A stretch of DNA of 34,608 bases from Verrucomicrobiota bacterium (GTDB lineage: Bacteria > Verrucomicrobiota > Verrucomicrobiia > Chthoniobacterales > UBA10450). A program made the translations under genes and the position numbers. Positions 1 to 30,283 of this stretch are shown here, piece by piece; the first letter of the stretch is position 1, and each line of letters begins with the position of its first letter. A model generated the notes under the pieces. It did no database searches. It had not been told where the DNA came from and saw only the letters and a program-made list of their open reading frames with translations. Where the stretch lies: assembly GCA_003219265.1 (NCBI GenBank), contig QHQE01000105.1:1-34608 (forward strand), read 5' to 3'.

Positions 1-98
1 AGTTGAAATTCGCGATCGAATCATGAAAGATCGCGAAATGTTTCGCCTGGGATTTTTCTCGCGTTCGGCAAATAGCCAGCGCGCTGCTGTTTTTTATT

Positions 99-392
99 TT
101 GTCAGTTTTCGCAACGGCCAATGTGTTGACCTGGCACAACGACGACGCGCGCACCGGCCGGAATTTGAGCGAAAAGATGATCCTCACGCCGTCGAACGTC
201 AACTCGGCTGGCGCGGTGAATGCACTTGTCGATCCAACGTTGGAGTTGCACGACATTAGCGGGACGCTCATTGCGTCAAACGATAATGCCGCTATCCTGG
301 CGAGATTACAACCGGGGGATTACACTGCGATCGTGCGCGGCTCCGGTGGGACAACGGGCGTCGCACTGGTGGAAGCTTACTCGCTGCATTGA
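99..392 (+). pseudogene. Remnant or chimeric secreted surface protein (start uncertain; coding may begin further upstream)
   Basis: Signal-peptide-like LLFFILSVFATA, then WHNDDARTGRNLSEKMILTPSNVNS (typical N-terminus of one extracellular family) running directly into DPTLELHDISGTLIASNDN...AAILARLQPGDYTAIVRG (C-terminal module of a different family). Only about 100 aa in total. Confidence 0.4.
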
Positions 393-451
393 GTCTAATG
401 CCCGCCGTGATCGGAGATCTGCACTGAGCGAAGTCGAACTGGCGCGCCGGT

Positions 452-1702
452 TCAGCCGGCAAATTGCGTCGCGACCAGAGTGGCGTTGTGGCCGCCGAAG
501 CCGAACGAGTTGTTTAACACGACACGCACTTTCTTTTCCCGCGCCACATTTGGCGTGTAATCGAGGTCGCATTCCTCGCTCGGATTCTCCAGATTGATCG
601 TAGGCGGAATTACGGAATCGCGGATGGCAAGCGCGCAGGCCGCCATCTCTACACCGCCAGCGCCGCCTAACAAATGGCCAGTCATCGATTTGGTGGAGCT
701 GATCGAAACTTTGCGGGCGTGATTGCCGAAGACCTTCTTGATCGCTCGAGTCTCGCAAAGATCGCCGATGTCCGTAGAGGTGGCGTGGGCGTTGATGTAA
801 TCAACTTGGTCTGCGGAAATGCGGGCATGTTCGAGCGCGAGTTGCATGGCGCGCGCGGCGCCTTCGCCATTCGGTGGCGGAGCAGTCATGTGGTAGGCGT
901 CTGCAGTAAGTCCGTAGCCCGCGAGTTCGCAATAAATCTTCGCGCCGCGCGCTTTCGCGTGTTCCAGCTCTTCCACGACAACAACACCGGCGCCTTCGCT
1001 CATAACAAAGCCATCGCGATCGCGGTCGAACGGTCGCGAAGCGCGCTCGGGCTCGTCGTTGCGCGTGCTCAGCGCTCTCATGGCGGAGAATCCTGCAAGA
1101 CCAATCGCGACAATCGAAGCCTCGGAGCCTCCAGCGAGAAAAATATCGGCGTCGCCGAACTTAATCATCCGCCATGATTCGCCGATGGCGTTGTTCGAGG
1201 TCGCGCAGGCGGTAACGATGCACATGTTTGGACCATGCAGCCCGTACTCCATTGAGATGAGACCGCTGGCCATATTGCTGATCAACATCGGAATCGTGAA
1301 AGGGGAGTTTCGGGATGGCCCCTTGGTTACCAGGACCGTGTATTGATCCTCCAACGTTTTTAGTCCGCCGATGCCACTGCTGACAATCACGCCAAAGCGA
1401 TCTCGATTGAGCTTTTCAAGATCGATTCCACTGTTCTCCAGCGCCATCTTTGCCGCGGCCAGCGCGAGTTGCGCAAAACGATCGGTTCGCCGTATATCTT
1501 TCGGGTTGCGGAAAAATGGTTTCGGGTCGAAGTCGCGCACTTCACCGCCGATCTGGCAATCGTAGTCGGTCGTGTCGAAAGCCTCGATTTTGCGAATGCC
1601 GCTGACGCCCTTTTTAAGATTCGACCAGAATGTCTCCACGTTGTTTCCGACCGGTGTGATCGCGCCCAGACCGGTGATGACGACTCTTCGATCCGTATTC
1701 AT
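452..1702 (-). CDS. fabF: 3-oxoacyl-[acyl-carrier-protein] synthase II
   Basis: 416 aa; RRVVITGLGAITPVGN start, active-site VTACATSNN, SEGAGVVVVEELEHAKARGA, INAHATSTDIGD, GHLLGGAGGVE, NNSFGFGGHNA. Confidence 0.95.
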   Translation of the reverse strand: MNTDRRVVITGLGAITPVGNNVETFWSNLKKGVSGIRKIEAFDTTDYDCQIGGEVRDFDPKPFFRNPKDIRRTDRFAQLALAAAKMALENSGIDLEKLNRDRFGVIVSSGIGGLKTLEDQYTVLVTKGPSRNSPFTIPMLISNMASGLISMEYGLHGPNMCIVTACATSNNAIGESWRMIKFGDADIFLAGGSEASIVAIGLAGFSAMRALSTRNDEPERASRPFDRDRDGFVMSEGAGVVVVEELEHAKARGAKIYCELAGYGLTADAYHMTAPPPNGEGAARAMQLALEHARISADQVDYINAHATSTDIGDLCETRAIKKVFGNHARKVSISSTKSMTGHLLGGAGGVEMAACALAIRDSVIPPTINLENPSEECDLDYTPNVAREKKVRVVLNNSFGFGGHNATLVATQFAG

Positions 1703-15123: not shown

Positions 15124-15163
15124 GTTGCGGCGAGATGCCGCAACCAGCACGCGAGACGCGTGC
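15124..15163. repeat. Tandem intergenic hairpins upstream of ftsW
   Basis: GTTGCGGC-gagat-GCCGCAAC (15124-15144, perfect 8-bp stem) followed by GCACGCG-aga-CGCGTGC (15147-15163, perfect 7-bp stem). Confidence 0.75.
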
Positions 15164-15184
15164 GCTCCGCAATCCGAGAACCTA

Positions 15185-16327
15185 ATGCATCGTAAAAGCG
15201 CTTACATCCTGTTTCTGGCCGTGCTCGGCATGCTCGTCATCGGCATCGTCATGCTTTTCAGCACGAGTGCCTTTGCGCGCGACAGTCATGGCGATGTTTA
15301 CTTTTTCATCAGACGCCAGGCGATTTGGCTCGGAGTCGGGCTGGCCGTCTGCACGGTCGCCGCGCTCATCGATTACCATTTTTGGCAGCGGACATGGTGG
15401 CTTTGGTTTGGTCTCGCATTCATTGCGCTGGCGCTTTGCTTCGTTCCGCATCTCGGAATGCGCATTAACGGTTCGCGCCGGTGGGTTGGCCTCGGTCAGT
15501 TCGGTTTTCAACCCTCTGAGATTGCGAAGATCGCTGCGGTGTTTTTTCTCGCCGCTTGGTTTTCGCGTTATGAAAAGGCAACCAGTAGTCTGCTCCGCGG
15601 CTTTGTTCTTCCGCTCGCGATCGTCACTTTGCTGCTCGCGCTTATTCTCACCGAGGTGGACCTCGGAACGACCGTCCTGCTCGGCGCGACCGCATTTGTC
15701 GTGATGTTCGTTGCCGGAGTGAATCCGATGTTGCTCAGCATGGTTTCGCTTGCCGGAGTAGGTGGCATTCTCTTTCTCGCCACGCAAATGTCAGAACGAA
15801 TGGGCCGGCTGGCCGCGTTTCTCGATCCGGAACGCTTCAAACAAGATGCCGGCTTGCAGCAGATGCAGGCGTTGATCGCCTGGGGCAGCGGCGGAATGGA
15901 AGGACTTGGCCTCGGCAACGGCCGGCAAAAAATGCTTTATCTGCCCTACGCCCACACGGATTTCATTTTCCCGATTATCGGTGAAGAGCTCGGTCTACGG
16001 GTCAGCTTGCTCGTGGTCTTTTTGTTCGTGGTCATCATTGTTTGCGGAATGATGATCGCGCTGCACGCCAAAGACCGGTTCGGTTTGCTGCTTGGCTGCG
16101 GCGTTGTTTCGCTGCTGGCTTTGCAGGCGGCGGTGAACATTGGCGTGACCACTTCGCTTTTGCCGAACAAAGGTCTGCCGCTGCCCTTTATCAGCTACGG
16201 AGGTTCGAACCTCGCCGCGTCTTTGTTCGGGATTGGTTTACTCCTGAATATTTATCGCCAGGGGGTTCTCGAACCGTTGCACAAGAAACGGACGATGATG
16301 CCGGCTCGGATGACACCGCGGATTTAG
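15185..16327 (+). CDS. ftsW: SEDS peptidoglycan glycosyltransferase FtsW
   Basis: Multi-TM; INGSRRWVGLGQFGFQPSEIAKIAAVFFLA, LGLGNGRQKMLYLPYAHTDFIFPIIGEELG, LLPNKGLPLPFISYGGSN. Confidence 0.95.
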   Translation: MHRKSAYILFLAVLGMLVIGIVMLFSTSAFARDSHGDVYFFIRRQAIWLGVGLAVCTVAALIDYHFWQRTWWLWFGLAFIALALCFVPHLGMRINGSRRWVGLGQFGFQPSEIAKIAAVFFLAAWFSRYEKATSSLLRGFVLPLAIVTLLLALILTEVDLGTTVLLGATAFVVMFVAGVNPMLLSMVSLAGVGGILFLATQMSERMGRLAAFLDPERFKQDAGLQQMQALIAWGSGGMEGLGLGNGRQKMLYLPYAHTDFIFPIIGEELGLRVSLLVVFLFVVIIVCGMMIALHAKDRFGLLLGCGVVSLLALQAAVNIGVTTSLLPNKGLPLPFISYGGSNLAASLFGIGLLLNIYRQGVLEPLHKKRTMMPARMTPRI

Positions 16328-16351: not shown

Positions 16352-17407
16352 ATGAACACAGTGATCGCATGCGGTGGAACCGGCGGACATCTTTTCCCCG
16401 GCATCGCCGTGGCCGAGGTGCTGCGTGATCGCGGCCACGAAGTCATGTTGTTGATCTCGGAAAAGGAAATTGATACACTCGCGCTTTCCGGAGGCGCACG
16501 TTTCCGATTCGAAAAGTTGCCCACAGTCGGATTGCCTTCGCCATTCTCGCCTGCGATTCTGGGTTTTATCCGGCGATTCGGCGCAAGCCTTTCGCTTTGT
16601 CGATCCATCTACCGCAAGTTCAAACCACAAGTTGTTCTCGGCATGGGCGGCTTCACCTCCACCGCGCCCGTCCTCGCTGGGCGCATGCGCGGCGTTTCCA
16701 CTTTTATTCACGAATCGAACGCCGTTCCCGGAAAAGCCAACCGGCTGACCGCGCGGATGGTGCGTGCCGTCCTGCTCGGATTCAAGGAATGCGCGCCCTT
16801 TTTTCCAAAAGCGCGCACTGAAGTCACCGGCACGCCCATTCGAACCGAGCTCAAACGCTTGGATCGACATGTTGCGCGTCAAAGACTGGGCCTGCGCGAA
16901 GACCTCACGACGCTGCTCGTGATGGGCGGAAGCCAGGGCGCGAGTGGGATCAACCAGGCCATCATCAAATCGCTGCCCTCATTGCATGATGTCCGTCTCC
17001 AGGTCATCCATCTCTCCGGTGGGCGCGATGAGCGTCTGGTTGCGGATAATTATCGCCGCGAAAATATTCCGGCTTTTGTCGCCGCTTTCCACCATCGGAT
17101 GGAGGAAGTTTATAGTGCCGCCGATCTTATTGTTTCGCTGCCGGGCATCTTAATTCCCTTTCCTTATGCGGCCGATGATCATCAATCGCGCAACGCGGAA
17201 ATCTTTGCGCGCGCTGAGGCCGCGATTCTCCTGAAGGAATCAGAGCTTTCCGGCGAATTACTGGCGGGCAAAATCAAGGAATTGATCGGCGACGCGCAGA
17301 AGCTTCGGTGCATGTCCGAAAACTGCTCGCGCCTGGCGCCGGAAAACGCCGCTGGGCTGGTGGTTGCAACCATGGAAAAATATAGCACTCATGACGCGCG
17401 CCTCTGA
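16352..17407 (+). CDS. murG: UDP-GlcNAc transferase MurG with apparent internal deletion
   Basis: ACGGTGGHLFPGIAVAEVL, GMGGFTSTAPVLAGR, HESNAVPGKANRL, VMGGSQGASGINQAI; but ...YSAADLIVS|LPGILIPFPYAADDHQ lacks the usual R-x-G-A-x-x-x-x-E segment. Confidence 0.9.
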   Translation: MNTVIACGGTGGHLFPGIAVAEVLRDRGHEVMLLISEKEIDTLALSGGARFRFEKLPTVGLPSPFSPAILGFIRRFGASLSLCRSIYRKFKPQVVLGMGGFTSTAPVLAGRMRGVSTFIHESNAVPGKANRLTARMVRAVLLGFKECAPFFPKARTEVTGTPIRTELKRLDRHVARQRLGLREDLTTLLVMGGSQGASGINQAIIKSLPSLHDVRLQVIHLSGGRDERLVADNYRRENIPAFVAAFHHRMEEVYSAADLIVSLPGILIPFPYAADDHQSRNAEIFARAEAAILLKESELSGELLAGKIKELIGDAQKLRCMSENCSRLAPENAAGLVVATMEKYSTHDARL

Positions 17408-19007
17408 AATAGACCTGACGAAGCTGCTCATAAGTGAGCACCACAAGATTCATCTGATCGGCGTGGCTGGGAGCGGAATGAGCGGGATCGCCGCGCTTTT
17501 GCTCGAGCTCGGGCACGAGGTTAGCGGTTCGGATAAAGTCAGCACCCTGGAGACGGATCGATTGCAGCGTCTCGGTCTGCGTTTTCGTGAAGAACATCGC
17601 GCGGAGGATGCGAGTGACGCCGAGCTCGTCATCTTTTCTTCCGCCATTAAGATCGACAATCCGATCCTGCTAAGCGCACGCGACTCTGGAAAGCCGGTCG
17701 TGCGCCGGGCCGAGGCGCTCGCTGCCATCATGCGCGGCAAGCGCGGCATCGTCATCGCTGGAATGCACGGAAAAACGACGACCTCGGCAATGGCCGCGCA
17801 CGTTCTGCGCGAAGGTGGACTGCATCCGTCACATTACGTCGGCGCGGAAATCCCGATTCTTGGGACCAACGCGCACTGGGACCCGCGTGGCGAATATTTT
17901 GTCGCGGAAGGCGACGAAAGCGATGGGACGCTCCAGTATTTTCATCCCGAACTCACCCTCATTTTGAACATTGAAGAAGAGCATCTCGATTTTTATGCCG
18001 ATCTTGCCGCCATCGAAAAAGTTTTCGCTCAGCTCATCGCGCAAACGAGCGCAACTGTTTTTTACAGCGCCGATGACGCGAACACTGCGAAATTATGCGC
18101 CGAGCGAAAAGCCGCCATCTCTTATGGTTTTTCTGAAAAAGCGGACTATCGCGGCGCCGATGTTGAGTTGCGCGATTTCGCGTCCGTTTTTCGCGTTTAT
18201 CGTCAAGGCAAACAACTTGGCGAAGCGGTGCTGAATGTTCCCGGCCAGCACAACGTCCACAATGCCATCGGCGTGATCGCGCTCGCCACCGAACTCGGGA
18301 TTGCCTTTGAAAAAATTGCCGCCTCGCTGCGCAAGTTCGAGCACGCGCGTCGTCGTTTTGAAATCAAATACGCGAGCGATCGTTTTCTCCTGGTCGATGA
18401 TTACGCGCATCATCCCACGGAAATTCGTGCCACGCTTAAGACGGCGAAATCAACCAGGCGCAAGCGTGTGCTGACCATGTTTCAGCCACATCGTTTTTCA
18501 CGAACGAAAGCGCTGTGCAAAGAATTCGGAAGCGCGTTCGATGATGCTGACCGCGTCGTGGTAACGGATATTTACGCGGCAAGTGAGGCGCCGATTCCCG
18601 AAATCAGCGGTCAAACCATCGCGGATGAAATTGTGGCGCACGGTCATGGGGGCGTGAGTTACCAGCCGCGTTTGGAATGGATGCATCGAAATGTCGGAAA
18701 CATGCTGAACTCCGGCGATCTCGTGCTGAGCCTTGGCGCGGGCAACATTCACGAGCAATTGTCGATCCTGGCCGCAGATCTCGTGATCGCAGAAAAGTTG
18801 AAAGCGATCGTCGGGGAAGAGGGCGATGTCCGCCTATACGAGCCGCTCTCTAAACACACCACTTTGCGCGTCGGCGGTCCGGCGCAGTTTTGGGTTGAAC
18901 CGCGCAATGAAAGCGCCTTCGCAGAATTGATTCGCTTTTGCCGGCACGAAACTCTTTCGCTTTTCGTCATCGGCTCGTGCGCGACGGTGGCATCCGCGGG
19001 GTGGTAG
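17391..19007 (+). CDS. murC: UDP-N-acetylmuramate--L-alanine ligase fused to N-terminal part of MurB (frameshifted)
   Basis: IHLIGVAGSGMSGIAALLLELGHEVSGSD, IAGMHGKTTTSAMAAHVL, VDDYAHHPTEIRATLKTAK; after the MurC domain the same frame continues into MurB start VRLYEPLSKHTTLRVGGPAQFWVEPRNE before terminating as SCATVASAGW*. Confidence 0.93.
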   Translation: MTRASEIDLTKLLISEHHKIHLIGVAGSGMSGIAALLLELGHEVSGSDKVSTLETDRLQRLGLRFREEHRAEDASDAELVIFSSAIKIDNPILLSARDSGKPVVRRAEALAAIMRGKRGIVIAGMHGKTTTSAMAAHVLREGGLHPSHYVGAEIPILGTNAHWDPRGEYFVAEGDESDGTLQYFHPELTLILNIEEEHLDFYADLAAIEKVFAQLIAQTSATVFYSADDANTAKLCAERKAAISYGFSEKADYRGADVELRDFASVFRVYRQGKQLGEAVLNVPGQHNVHNAIGVIALATELGIAFEKIAASLRKFEHARRRFEIKYASDRFLLVDDYAHHPTEIRATLKTAKSTRRKRVLTMFQPHRFSRTKALCKEFGSAFDDADRVVVTDIYAASEAPIPEISGQTIADEIVAHGHGGVSYQPRLEWMHRNVGNMLNSGDLVLSLGAGNIHEQLSILAADLVIAEKLKAIVGEEGDVRLYEPLSKHTTLRVGGPAQFWVEPRNESAFAELIRFCRHETLSLFVIGSCATVASAGW

Positions 19008-19672
19008 TTCATCCGTGCGGCGGCGATTTCGACCGGATCGAGATCAACGGAACCGAAATCACAGCGGGCGTCGGCGCAAAACTAAAAGAACTTGCATACG
19101 CCGGAAAAGCGGCCGGCTTGACTGGCCTCGAATGGATGGAAGGAATTCCCGGCGCGATTGGCGGCGCGTTGCGCATGAACGCGGGCGCGATGGGCGCGCA
19201 AACTTTTGAAAACGTGGTGCGTCTTCGTTATCTTGATGCCAACGGCGAAGCGCACACGAAAAACCGCGACGAACTGGAAGTGCACTATCGCAACGTGCCG
19301 ATCTTGGAACAAAACTACGCGGTCCGCGCGGTTTTTCGCGGCCAGGCGGCGCCGGCCGAGGAGATCGTGCGCAAACTGAAAGCGTCTCAGGAAAAGCGGC
19401 GCTCTTCGCAGCCGATGGCCAAAAGCGCGGGCTGCATTTTCAAAAATCCAGGCCCTTGTCCGGCGGGGAAACTTATCGATGAGCTGGGGTTGAAACATTC
19501 GCGCGTGGGAAATGCGCGCGTCTCCGAAGTGCACGGCAATTTCATCGTCAACGATGGCGGCGCGACCGCATCGGAAATGCTTGAGTTGATTGACAAGATC
19601 AAAGCGACCGCGCGCGCAAAGCGTGGGATCGAGCTGGAGACGGAAGTTAAAATCGTGGGAGAACCGGCATGA
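18975..19672 (+). pseudogene. murB: UDP-N-acetylenolpyruvoylglucosamine reductase, C-terminal part (out of frame with its N-terminus)
   Basis: LVRDGGIRGVVVHP...GLTGLEWMEGIPGAIGGALRMNAGAMGAQTFENV...SAGCIFKNPGPCPAGKLIDELGLK...VSEVHGNFIVNDGGATASEM; ORF track starts it at 18938 with non-homologous residues. Confidence 0.85.
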
Positions 19673-25958: not shown

Positions 25959-28169
25959 ATGGATTTCGAGAAGAACACGATGCTCTTCGGCGCGGATTCG
26001 ACGCCGCGCATTGTTGCAATCGAACTGGGGGAAGCCGGCACGGTAAAAGTTTACCGGCGTGGAAAAGATGGTTCGACAATCGCCGACATCGAGCCGTTCC
26101 ATCCATTCGTTTGGTGCGACTCCGATATTGTCGATCTTGGCATCGAGGCTGAAAAACTCGCCGGCGATCTTAAATACGGTTGGCGCGTCACCATCGACAG
26201 CTGGAAGGAATTGATCGCGCTGCGTAACGGGCTCAAAAAAGCCGGGCGCAATTTCTTTGCGTTCACCGATCCCGTCCAACATTATCTCACCGCGACTGGC
26301 CGGACGCTTTTCAAAGAGTTGCCGTTCGAGGAACTCAAGCGGATGCAACTCGAAGTCCTGTCATTCGCCGAGCCTATAACCGGGGTCGCTGACCCTGGCC
26401 CCACCGACCATCTCATGAGCATCGCCCTCTCCGACAAATCTGGCTGGGAGGAATTGATAATTGTCGATCAAAAAAACGCCGAGGAATCGGAGAGAAATGC
26501 GCTCAAGCGCTTAACGAGTCTCATCGAGGAACGCGATCCGGATGTGATCGAAGGTCACAACTTGTTCCGCTTCGATCTGCCGTATCTGGTTACTCGTGCG
26601 CGTAGAGCAAAAGCGAAGCTCAATTGGGGGCGCAGCGGCGGATTTTTACGGTCGCGTCCGTCGCGACTCCAGATCGCGGAGAAAACCATCGATTACCCGA
26701 AGTTCACGATCGATGGCCGGCATTTCGTCGATACATTTTTGCTCGCGCAATTTTACGATGTCGGAATGCGCACGTTATCGGGCTTCGAGCGTGTCGATGT
26801 GGCGCGGCATTTCGGTTTTTGCGATAGCGAAGAGCTTTCGTCGCTCACCGGGAAGGAATTGCAACGTGCCTACATCGAGAATGACGAAAAGTTTCGGCAA
26901 CGTGCGCTTTGCGCCGTACGCGAAACGCGCGCCGTCGCCGAGCTTCTCAGCCCGAGTTATTTCGTCCAGGCGCAGATTTTCCCCTACAATTATCAGGACG
27001 TGATCGTGCGCGGCAACGCTACGCGGATCAACGCGCTTTTCCTGCGTGAATATTTCCGGCAGCGTCATTCCATTCCGGAGATGCCGATGGTGCGCACGTT
27101 CGAGGGTGGTTACACCGACATCTTCTTCACCGGTGTCGCGCGCAACGTCTGGCATTGCGACGTGGCGTCGCTTTATCCGTCGGTCATGTTGCAGTTCGAT
27201 TGCTTTCCCGCGACTGATCGACTCCAGATTTTCCGGCATCTGCTGAGTGACCTGCGCACTTTCCGACTCGAAGCGAAAGCAAACATGCGCGCGGCGTCGA
27301 ACGATCCGGCGCGGCAACGCTATTTTCATGCGCTTCAAAACACATTCAAAATTCTGATTAACAGCTTTTACGGCTATCTCGGATTCGCGCAGGGACATTT
27401 CGCCGATTTCGACGCCGCTGCGCGCGTCACGCAGATCGGGCGCGACCTGTTGAAAAAAATGATCGACTGGCTGAACGCGCGCGGCGCGCAAGTGATCGAG
27501 GTGGACACAGACGGCATTTATTTCACGCCGCCGCCGAAGATCGACATCGACAAATTACGCAGCGGCCTGGCGAAAGAATTGCCACCGGGCATCGAGGTCG
27601 AGTTCGACGAGCAGTTCGACGCCATGTTCAGCTACAAGGCGAAAAACTACGCGCTGCTCACGCGCGACGGCGACGTGATCGTCAAGGGTGGCGCGCTCAA
27701 GTCGCGCGGGCTTGAGAAATTCCAGCGCGTCTTCCTCGAGGAAATGATCAAGCTCATCATGGATGGAAAACCGGAAGAGATTTTCGATCTTCGAGAAAAG
27801 TTCAAAAACAAAATCCGCAATCGTGAATGGAACATCGACATGTTGATGAAAACCGACACGCTCCAGGATTCACTCGACAAATATCGCCGAAAGATCGCCG
27901 GCTCAGCGCGCAACCGCGCCGCTGCTTACGAGCTAGCCCTCGCGAGCGGCCGCAATTATTGCCCCGGCGACCAGATCAGTTATTACATTACCGGCTCCGG
28001 AAAGAAGGTCGCCGCGTATGAAAACGCCAAGCTCGCTTTAAGCTTCGATCCGCAAAACCGCGACGAAAACATCGATTACTACGTCGCCAAGCTCGACGAG
28101 CTGGCGAAGAAATTTGAAGGACTCGCTGCTGTTACATGCAACGAGAAACAGGAGAATCTGGCCTTCTAA
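25959..28169 (+). CDS. Family B DNA polymerase (exonuclease motifs degenerate)
   Basis: Pol motif A CDVASLYPSVML, motif B NTFKILINSFYGYLGF, motif C VIEVDTDGIYF, KNYAL; Exo II-like IEGHNLFRFDLPYL; Exo I and Exo III positions not canonical. Confidence 0.92.
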   Translation: MDFEKNTMLFGADSTPRIVAIELGEAGTVKVYRRGKDGSTIADIEPFHPFVWCDSDIVDLGIEAEKLAGDLKYGWRVTIDSWKELIALRNGLKKAGRNFFAFTDPVQHYLTATGRTLFKELPFEELKRMQLEVLSFAEPITGVADPGPTDHLMSIALSDKSGWEELIIVDQKNAEESERNALKRLTSLIEERDPDVIEGHNLFRFDLPYLVTRARRAKAKLNWGRSGGFLRSRPSRLQIAEKTIDYPKFTIDGRHFVDTFLLAQFYDVGMRTLSGFERVDVARHFGFCDSEELSSLTGKELQRAYIENDEKFRQRALCAVRETRAVAELLSPSYFVQAQIFPYNYQDVIVRGNATRINALFLREYFRQRHSIPEMPMVRTFEGGYTDIFFTGVARNVWHCDVASLYPSVMLQFDCFPATDRLQIFRHLLSDLRTFRLEAKANMRAASNDPARQRYFHALQNTFKILINSFYGYLGFAQGHFADFDAAARVTQIGRDLLKKMIDWLNARGAQVIEVDTDGIYFTPPPKIDIDKLRSGLAKELPPGIEVEFDEQFDAMFSYKAKNYALLTRDGDVIVKGGALKSRGLEKFQRVFLEEMIKLIMDGKPEEIFDLREKFKNKIRNREWNIDMLMKTDTLQDSLDKYRRKIAGSARNRAAAYELALASGRNYCPGDQISYYITGSGKKVAAYENAKLALSFDPQNRDENIDYYVAKLDELAKKFEGLAAVTCNEKQENLAF
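26380..26398. repeat. Palindrome within polymerase coding sequence
   Basis: CCGGGGTC-gct-GACCCTGG, one mismatch, encodes TGVADPG next to the Exo I position. Confidence 0.55.
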
Positions 28170-28176
28170 GACTAAT

Positions 28177-30081
28177 TTATCTCTCGATTAGAATGTCCGG
28201 CCGAGGTGTATGCGGAGTAAAAATATTTTCGATATAACGCCTGGACCACGGCACGTCGACGGTCCGCGTCCAATTCACAAAATTCCGGACGGTTAGCTGA
28301 TCCTGTTTGGACAAAGCCTCAAACTCTGCCCGCAGTACTGCCGGAATCGATTTACCGCCACCGATGTACCCGCTCAACATGATATCGAGTTTCGTTTTCG
28401 TTAGCGGGTCGTATTCCCGCCACGCCATCAGAATGACGCGAGCCTCGTGGAACCGGTTGCCCGATTGATCGGCTGTATCTTTGCCCGGCGGAGGCGATGT
28501 CCCCGCGAGTTGTTCGAGAGACGGTGTTAAGTCGCGGAGATCCGCACGCCAAGTCGCTTCGAGTAAATAGGACGGTAATTCGGATTTGTCGGCGAAAGCC
28601 GAAAGCTCCGATTTGAGAAATTCGATGAGGCTGGGCCGCAATTCAGGATGTCCGCCTGCAAGCGATGCAGCACCAATTAATGGACCATTCCACCGAAAAT
28701 TCGGTGGATCATTCCACGGAAATTTCGCGAGAACGGACTCTTTTCCTAGGCTGAGGAGCTCCGGGAAGGCGTCTAGTGCATCATGGGAGCCGAGCTTCTC
28801 TGCGGCTGTCATCGCCGTGATTCGTAGATCATCTATAAGTCGCTCCTCATCGCTCTCTTTCTTTCGCTTCTCCTCACGTAGTTTTAGTTCTTTCTCGAAA
28901 CTCGCCTGATCGGGAAATCTGCTTGGGTCGAGTTCTTGCATCTCGGGCATCGGTTTGAAGTTGGCCGCGGCTTCTACTCCGCGATGCAGCACTTCGAGTA
29001 AGGCGCCGTCGATGCGTGCATCCTTGTAGCGCAGCGGATTTGAGATTGGAACTAGCATGTCCATCACATCGGAACACAGGTACTGCCGCTTCGGATTGCG
29101 AAGAATGTCTGCCAATCTGCCGATCCAGCGCTTGACGGCTTCGGGATCATCGCCGTCTGGAGGTGGTGCGTGCAGGAACTTCGCGTCCGGGTCCGGGGCA
29201 ACGTACCGGCCGATTTTTGGAACGGGATACCGTCTTTTGATTCCGCTTCGCTCGATCAATCGTCGAATTAAAGTCGCCGCAAATGTGTCACAGGATTCTG
29301 CCACGTTTCCGGCGGCGCACTCACCGCAAGGTTCACCGAAGACTGCTTTCTCGATTACCGGCCCGTCCGGTTTCATCCAAAGACGTCCGAAGTCGTCAAC
29401 CGAAGAAAACGCTGCACTACGCCCCGATCTGGGCTCAACTACTGGATGCACGTGGCGCAGCCACCAGAGGATCTCATAAGTTTGCTGCGCCACGAGCCGC
29501 GGAAGCGGGTGAGAATCGGTTTTCATCACCGCGCGCTCGATCTCCTCTTTCGATGGCCGACCGACGATCTCGACCTCTGAAACTAACAGCGTCGAGTTGT
29601 AGCCATCGTGTTTCAGAATCGTTACGCCTTGCTCGGGAGCGGCGTAATAGTTTCCGCTGATCCACTGTATCCCGATCTCGCCACGCTTGGGTGGGTGAGC
29701 GTCTCGATTATCGATTTTGAAAGTGAGACCTTTTGCCTCCTTACTGACATAATCGGAGACGAACGCGACCGCCGCGTCGCGAGGATCCATTTCCCAAAGG
29801 CGGTCTAAAGAAGAGAATCTCACACGATCCTCCTCATATTCCTGTGAAAGTTGCTGGTCGACCGAACTCTTGCGCCCAACCACCAATTGCAGTAGCTCTT
29901 CATCAGTTTTGTCTTTCAGAGAGCCAAGCGTTGCTGGCGTTGCAGCTCGAGAAGCGATTGGGGATGGAGAATTACCGCCGAGTGATGAAATGCCGTTAAT
30001 GAGAATTGCGGCGCCCGCGACCGCGGCGAGCAGATATCGACGGCGAACTTTTGTCATACTCCCCTCGTCAGGTGTTGCCAT
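28177..30081 (-). CDS. Uncharacterised exported/membrane-anchored protein
   Basis: Long ORF; N-terminal RRRYLLAAVAGAAILINGI hydrophobic anchor; CGECAAGNVAESC cysteine cluster; no family recognised. Start likely MATPDEGSM (30081), because the ORF-track N-terminus (30150) is antisense to the duplicated polymerase tail. Confidence 0.7.
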   Translation of the reverse strand: MATPDEGSMTKVRRRYLLAAVAGAAILINGISSLGGNSPSPIASRAATPATLGSLKDKTDEELLQLVVGRKSSVDQQLSQEYEEDRVRFSSLDRLWEMDPRDAAVAFVSDYVSKEAKGLTFKIDNRDAHPPKRGEIGIQWISGNYYAAPEQGVTILKHDGYNSTLLVSEVEIVGRPSKEEIERAVMKTDSHPLPRLVAQQTYEILWWLRHVHPVVEPRSGRSAAFSSVDDFGRLWMKPDGPVIEKAVFGEPCGECAAGNVAESCDTFAATLIRRLIERSGIKRRYPVPKIGRYVAPDPDAKFLHAPPPDGDDPEAVKRWIGRLADILRNPKRQYLCSDVMDMLVPISNPLRYKDARIDGALLEVLHRGVEAAANFKPMPEMQELDPSRFPDQASFEKELKLREEKRKKESDEERLIDDLRITAMTAAEKLGSHDALDAFPELLSLGKESVLAKFPWNDPPNFRWNGPLIGAASLAGGHPELRPSLIEFLKSELSAFADKSELPSYLLEATWRADLRDLTPSLEQLAGTSPPPGKDTADQSGNRFHEARVILMAWREYDPLTKTKLDIMLSGYIGGGKSIPAVLRAEFEALSKQDQLTVRNFVNWTRTVDVPWSRRYIENIFTPHTPRPDILIER

Positions 30082-30130
30082 CGGTGTATGAGATTTCAAT
30101 GATAACGGAAAGATGAATCGGAGAACAGCC

Positions 30131-30283
30131 GCCGCCTCCGAAAATGCCAAACTTAGCTCGAATTCCGATACGCAAAACCGCGACGAAAACGTCGATTACT
30201 ACATCGCCAAGCTCGACGAGCTGGTGAAGAAATTCACGAATTTGAAGGACGCTTCTGCTAAACAGGAAACGCTCGCGTTGTAG
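30131..30283 (+). pseudogene. Duplicated 3' tail of the family B polymerase gene
   Basis: AASENAKLSSNSDTQNRDENVDYYIAKLDELVKKFTNLKDASAKQETLAL* parallels polymerase C-terminus AAYENAKLALSFDPQNRDENIDYYVAKLDELAKKFEGL...KQENLAF*; 61/65 nt identical in the core. Confidence 0.85.

Follow-up and report, generated by a model that had tools for sequence, protein, structure and literature searches.

MurG, the UDP-GlcNAc:lipid I GlcNAc transferase (TIGR01133; GT28), is represented by the structures 1f0k/1nlm, 3s2u, and 7d1i, and its alpha/beta/alpha motif is reported to be indispensable for binding UDP-GlcNAc (PMC8256705). The locus analyzed here resembles these GT-B enzymes in carrying GGTGGH, HESN, GGSQGA, and PFPYAADDHQ, and differs from them in that 14 donor-binding residues are missing, in this assembly only. 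It also bears a likeness to a second system, the collapsed or under-sized scaffold gaps of short-read MAGs, here the soil MAGs named 14_xxxx_scaffold_curated (PMC6784897), where private deletions of 14–164 nt lie in conserved genes and are mostly frame-blind, being either N-less or located at N-runs that are too short. The window, that is, the whole 34,608-nt stretch of DNA that was analyzed, belongs to a draft Verrucomicrobiota soil MAG (GCA_003219265.1, here G000) that is 84% complete and of which 389 kb was sampled. The window contains no N letters, and the following features are relevant.

16352–17407, plus strand: murG, 351 amino acids, without 14 internal residues (ORF, TIGR01133, and PDB matches)
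17136–17144, plus strand, position ambiguous by a few nt: junction of a private 42-nt deletion, ...GATCTTATTGTT / TCGCTGCCGGGC... (DNA alignments; no N)
17364–19672, plus strand: murC-murB fusion gene, split by a frameshift into ORFs 17364–19007 and 18938–19672 (comparison with the intact ORF of G012)
18974–18982, plus strand: junction of a private 16-nt deletion in the MurB part (alignments with relatives; no N)

The murG gene lies in a dcw cluster arrangement, with ftsW, murG, and murC following one another in ORFs 15125–16327, 16352–17407, and 17364–19672. Its GGTGGH (N-terminal), HESN (HEQN in E. coli), and GGSQGA loops all align to 3s2u and 1f0k, and the protein is 71–86% identical to MurG of family relatives. 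At the gap the plus-strand ORF is translated as ...EEVYSAADLIVSLPGILIPFPYAADDHQ..., the flanks being EEVYSAADLIVS-LPGILIPFPYAADDHQ. The preliminary description had proposed an in-frame loss of about 14 residues that removes the GAxxxxE donor-binding segment between two well conserved flanks, and the alignment with 54 intact relatives bears this out for the flanks and for the gap, which spans exactly 14 columns absent in the window MurG alone (consensus ARAGAASLAELAAF) and is a clean 42 nt in the DNA alignments, which put the junction at about 17138–17142. The R, G, A, S, L, E, and F of ARAGAASLAELAAF do not vary in any of the 54 intact relatives, so that the lost segment takes with it the Arg, Gly-Ala, and Glu that are invariant in the donor-binding motif. 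A phmmer search against PDB chains opened the same 14-residue gap against the MurG structures 3s2u and 1f0k (E. coli), which places the missing segment in the donor-binding domain; this RSGAxxxxE segment of the C-domain is present in both structures as well as in 54/54 relatives. The whole-protein score of 222.2 bits falls under the curated cut-off of 250.25 bits for TIGR01133 (NCBIfam murG), which we attribute to the absence of the 14-residue segment.

MurG was detected in 55 of the 58 genomes searched, and GTDB genomes supplied 72 loci. The 42-nt gap is absent from all aligned loci of relatives (54 intact MurG), and highly contiguous assemblies, G012 and G006 among them, have the segment intact. 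Of 39 genomes searched for the junction sequence with up to 3 mismatches allowed, the window's own was the sole one to contain it (0/38 others). Close relatives sharing the shortened protein, which would have made it a conserved variant, were sought without success both among the 54 aligned proteins and in the 38 genomes, and a conserved short MurG is rejected. At the 91 columns that are otherwise invariant the window MurG has no private changes, and its dN/dS against relatives is 0.07–0.11, the same as for pairs of intact relatives, indicating that the remainder of the protein is under normal purifying selection. Decayed or re-purposed genes should look different from the constraint seen here, which disfavors both; with purifying selection unchanged, pseudogene decay of murG is rejected. 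Rescue by a second intact copy was also considered and rejected, as the window MurG is the sole one found in its genome and no other MurB copy was found there.

The second deletion lies 1.8 kb downstream, in a gene that relatives such as G012 carry as one fused murC-murB ORF. The 16 missing nt, at about 18976–18979, remove the Gly-rich GRGSNLL segment of MurB and shift the frame; the MurB gap that the preliminary description had placed less than 2 kb downstream is thus real. Like the murG junction, this junction is N-less.

In the same 3.3-kb murG-murC-murB region, similar defects are found in the sibling soil MAGs of the 14_xxxx_scaffold_curated series. N-less private deletions occur in AV51 (40 nt), AV106 (72 nt), AV72 (164 nt), AV86 (78 nt), and AV82 (14 nt), the last of which also bears a private 19-nt insertion without N. 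Under-sized N-runs are present in AV112 (N57 for 62 nt and N44 for 68 nt, and on a second contig N183 in place of ~230 nt) and in AV21 (NNN in place of 107 nt), and AV48 contains a single over-sized gap (N194 for 165). The siblings' deletions lie at other positions than those of the window, and most of their lengths are not multiples of 3. By comparison, N-less private deletions were found in these coding regions in none of 17 MAGs from other projects, two of which have mis-sized N-runs (300 for 76 and 100 for 263) that look like nominal lengths. The contrast between siblings and other projects in N-less deletions (5/~43 versus 0/17) involves few events and is suggestive only. The siblings' sample names match those of an IDBA-UD study of grassland soil, in which the samples were assembled with IDBA-UD, one of them with megahit and the IDBA-UD scaffolder, and the bins were corrected for scaffolding errors (PMC6784897; BioProject PRJNA449266).

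Loci of three of these siblings deserve separate description. The N-less 40-nt deletion of AV51 (locus L097) breaks the frame of murG ~463 nt from the gene start. The 19-nt insertion of AV82 (L075), ~181 nt from the start of murG, produces a near-perfect inverted repeat, TTGCCCACCGTGGGGC...GCCCACGGTGGGC, and is probably an assembly or chimeric-read artefact. AV112 has two divergent murG loci (L106 and L107, on G024:C100 and C204), both of them interrupted by N-gaps, a sign that the bin may be mixed.

Seven N-runs are present in the 389 kb sampled from the window's own genome. When ORFs of G012 were aligned to G000, frame-breaking deletions of 16, 32, and 22 nt were obtained in ~61 kb of coding sequence, together with one weak −1 call in a short gene of 60% identity, and with the roles of the two genomes swapped there were no frame-breaking deletions in ~59 kb. 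The 32- and 22-nt events correspond to under-sized N-runs (71 and 21) in one gene on another contig.

L197 (G000:C26), ~59–1591, minus strand: exosortase-like gene with N-runs 71 and 21, which are 20–32 and 22 nt shorter than the corresponding G012 sequence (G012 comparison)

We take this gene to be exosortase-like from inspection of its sequence. An independent estimate makes its N-run of 71 too short by 20 nt, compared with 32 nt above. The window's MAG therefore does contain scaffold gaps of under-estimated size, and the two on C26 are close together, like the pair of deletions in the window. For the other window genes with at least 8 relatives, length falls inside the relatives' range or near it (checked against G012); from 28177 onward, the fetched stretches offered few homologues of the window genes, or none, for a length comparison. 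Among these is a 657-amino acid ORF (28177–30150, minus strand) that matches nothing in Pfam or NCBIfam and lacks homologues in the relatives' fetched stretches; it may be specific to the lineage, or no gene at all. Near the cell-division cluster, the window also encodes a Family-B DNA polymerase with an exonuclease domain (25959–28169, plus strand; PF00136, PF03104), which scores well under the NCBIfam cut-offs for Pol II and is found in relatives too.

Taken at the level of the locus, the deletion is private to one assembly in a MurG that is otherwise constrained, and further gap-size errors occur in the same assembly (N71 and N21 of G000:C26) and in its siblings. It is very probable that the shortened MurG is an assembly artefact produced by scaffold gap closure, and slightly more probable yet that we are dealing with an artefact of one kind or another. 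The 42 nt in murG and the 16 nt 1.8 kb downstream would never have been assembled, and the flanking contigs would have been linked by paired reads. Naive gap estimates are biased downward by paired reads that span the gap, and a literature search on gap-size bias in scaffolders yielded nothing directly usable. Were the scaffolder's estimate to drop to zero or below, the contig ends could be fused without an N-run, leaving private deletions regardless of reading frame; we propose that the ends were joined without N because the gap size was estimated in this way. The window's two junctions differ from the gaps in C26, and since only the latter contain N, the tie between them is one of analogy. 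The N-less junctions are inferred to derive from gap closing rather than from contig-level graph simplification or later curation. The in-frame state of the MurG deletion has a chance of about one in three under an artefact, which counts against this explanation. The preliminary description had suggested a common process behind the MurG and MurB gaps, either assembly collapse or slippage at GC-rich microrepeats; the link to MurB and the assembly collapse are retained here, and slippage is not.

Real, recent deletions in the sampled population by slippage at short repeats or GC-rich hairpins, breaking both murG and murC-murB, are unlikely. The 42-nt segment in relatives indeed has a higher GC content (0.67, against 0.57 for the window), and the deletion offsets do have short direct repeats of 1–5 nt; however, in relatives the repeat matches at these offsets are 3 nt long at the median, compared with 2 in the background (95th percentile 4), and the missing segments show no advantage in folding over shuffled sequences (z of −1.1, −1.1, and +0.7). 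With microhomology and hairpin potential near background, an origin by slippage or hairpins is not favored. A walled bacterium should not survive the loss of MurG and MurB function, and a real deletion would imply a dead-end lineage or rescue by copies outside the 84% complete MAG. Against it stand the constraint on the rest of MurG, the failure to find another MurG or MurB copy, and the similar defects at unrelated positions in sibling MAGs.

Less probable still is another kind of artefact, in which deletion molecules from the library or PCR, or simplification of de Bruijn graph tips or bubbles between strains, gave rise to the junctions. The N-less state of the window junctions and of several sibling deletions would fit such a process, but most N-gaps in this MAG and the siblings are too short, and this accounts for a collapse to zero without a second process. 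The practical conclusion is the same for both kinds of artefact. A true variant of MurG, still functional after conserved or adaptive in-frame loss of the GAxxxxE segment, agrees with the reading frame and with the good conservation of both flanks, but is scarcely credible, as it is shared by no relative, shows no compensating changes at invariant sites, has a frame-shifting deletion next door in MurB, and would lack a segment of the donor-binding domain, whose alpha/beta/alpha motif is described as essential to the binding of UDP-GlcNAc (PMC8256705). We consider it just as far-fetched that the deletion is real and that the lineage's UDP-GlcNAc site functions without GAxxxxE or the lineage dispenses with the MurB-MurG route.

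A short MurG would be striking biology if true, but the gap is almost certainly a routine error in the data rather than the mark of a novel enzyme. Because the window junctions hold no N, the defect is invisible unless the locus is compared with relatives. In soil MAGs, scaffold gaps of the wrong size, or closed with no N, can delete catalytic motifs in frame, and ORFs with such losses can pass as intact; any claim that an essential gene of a single MAG has lost a motif must therefore be backed by relatives or reads. Most likely, both MurG and MurC-MurB are ordinary in the organism itself.
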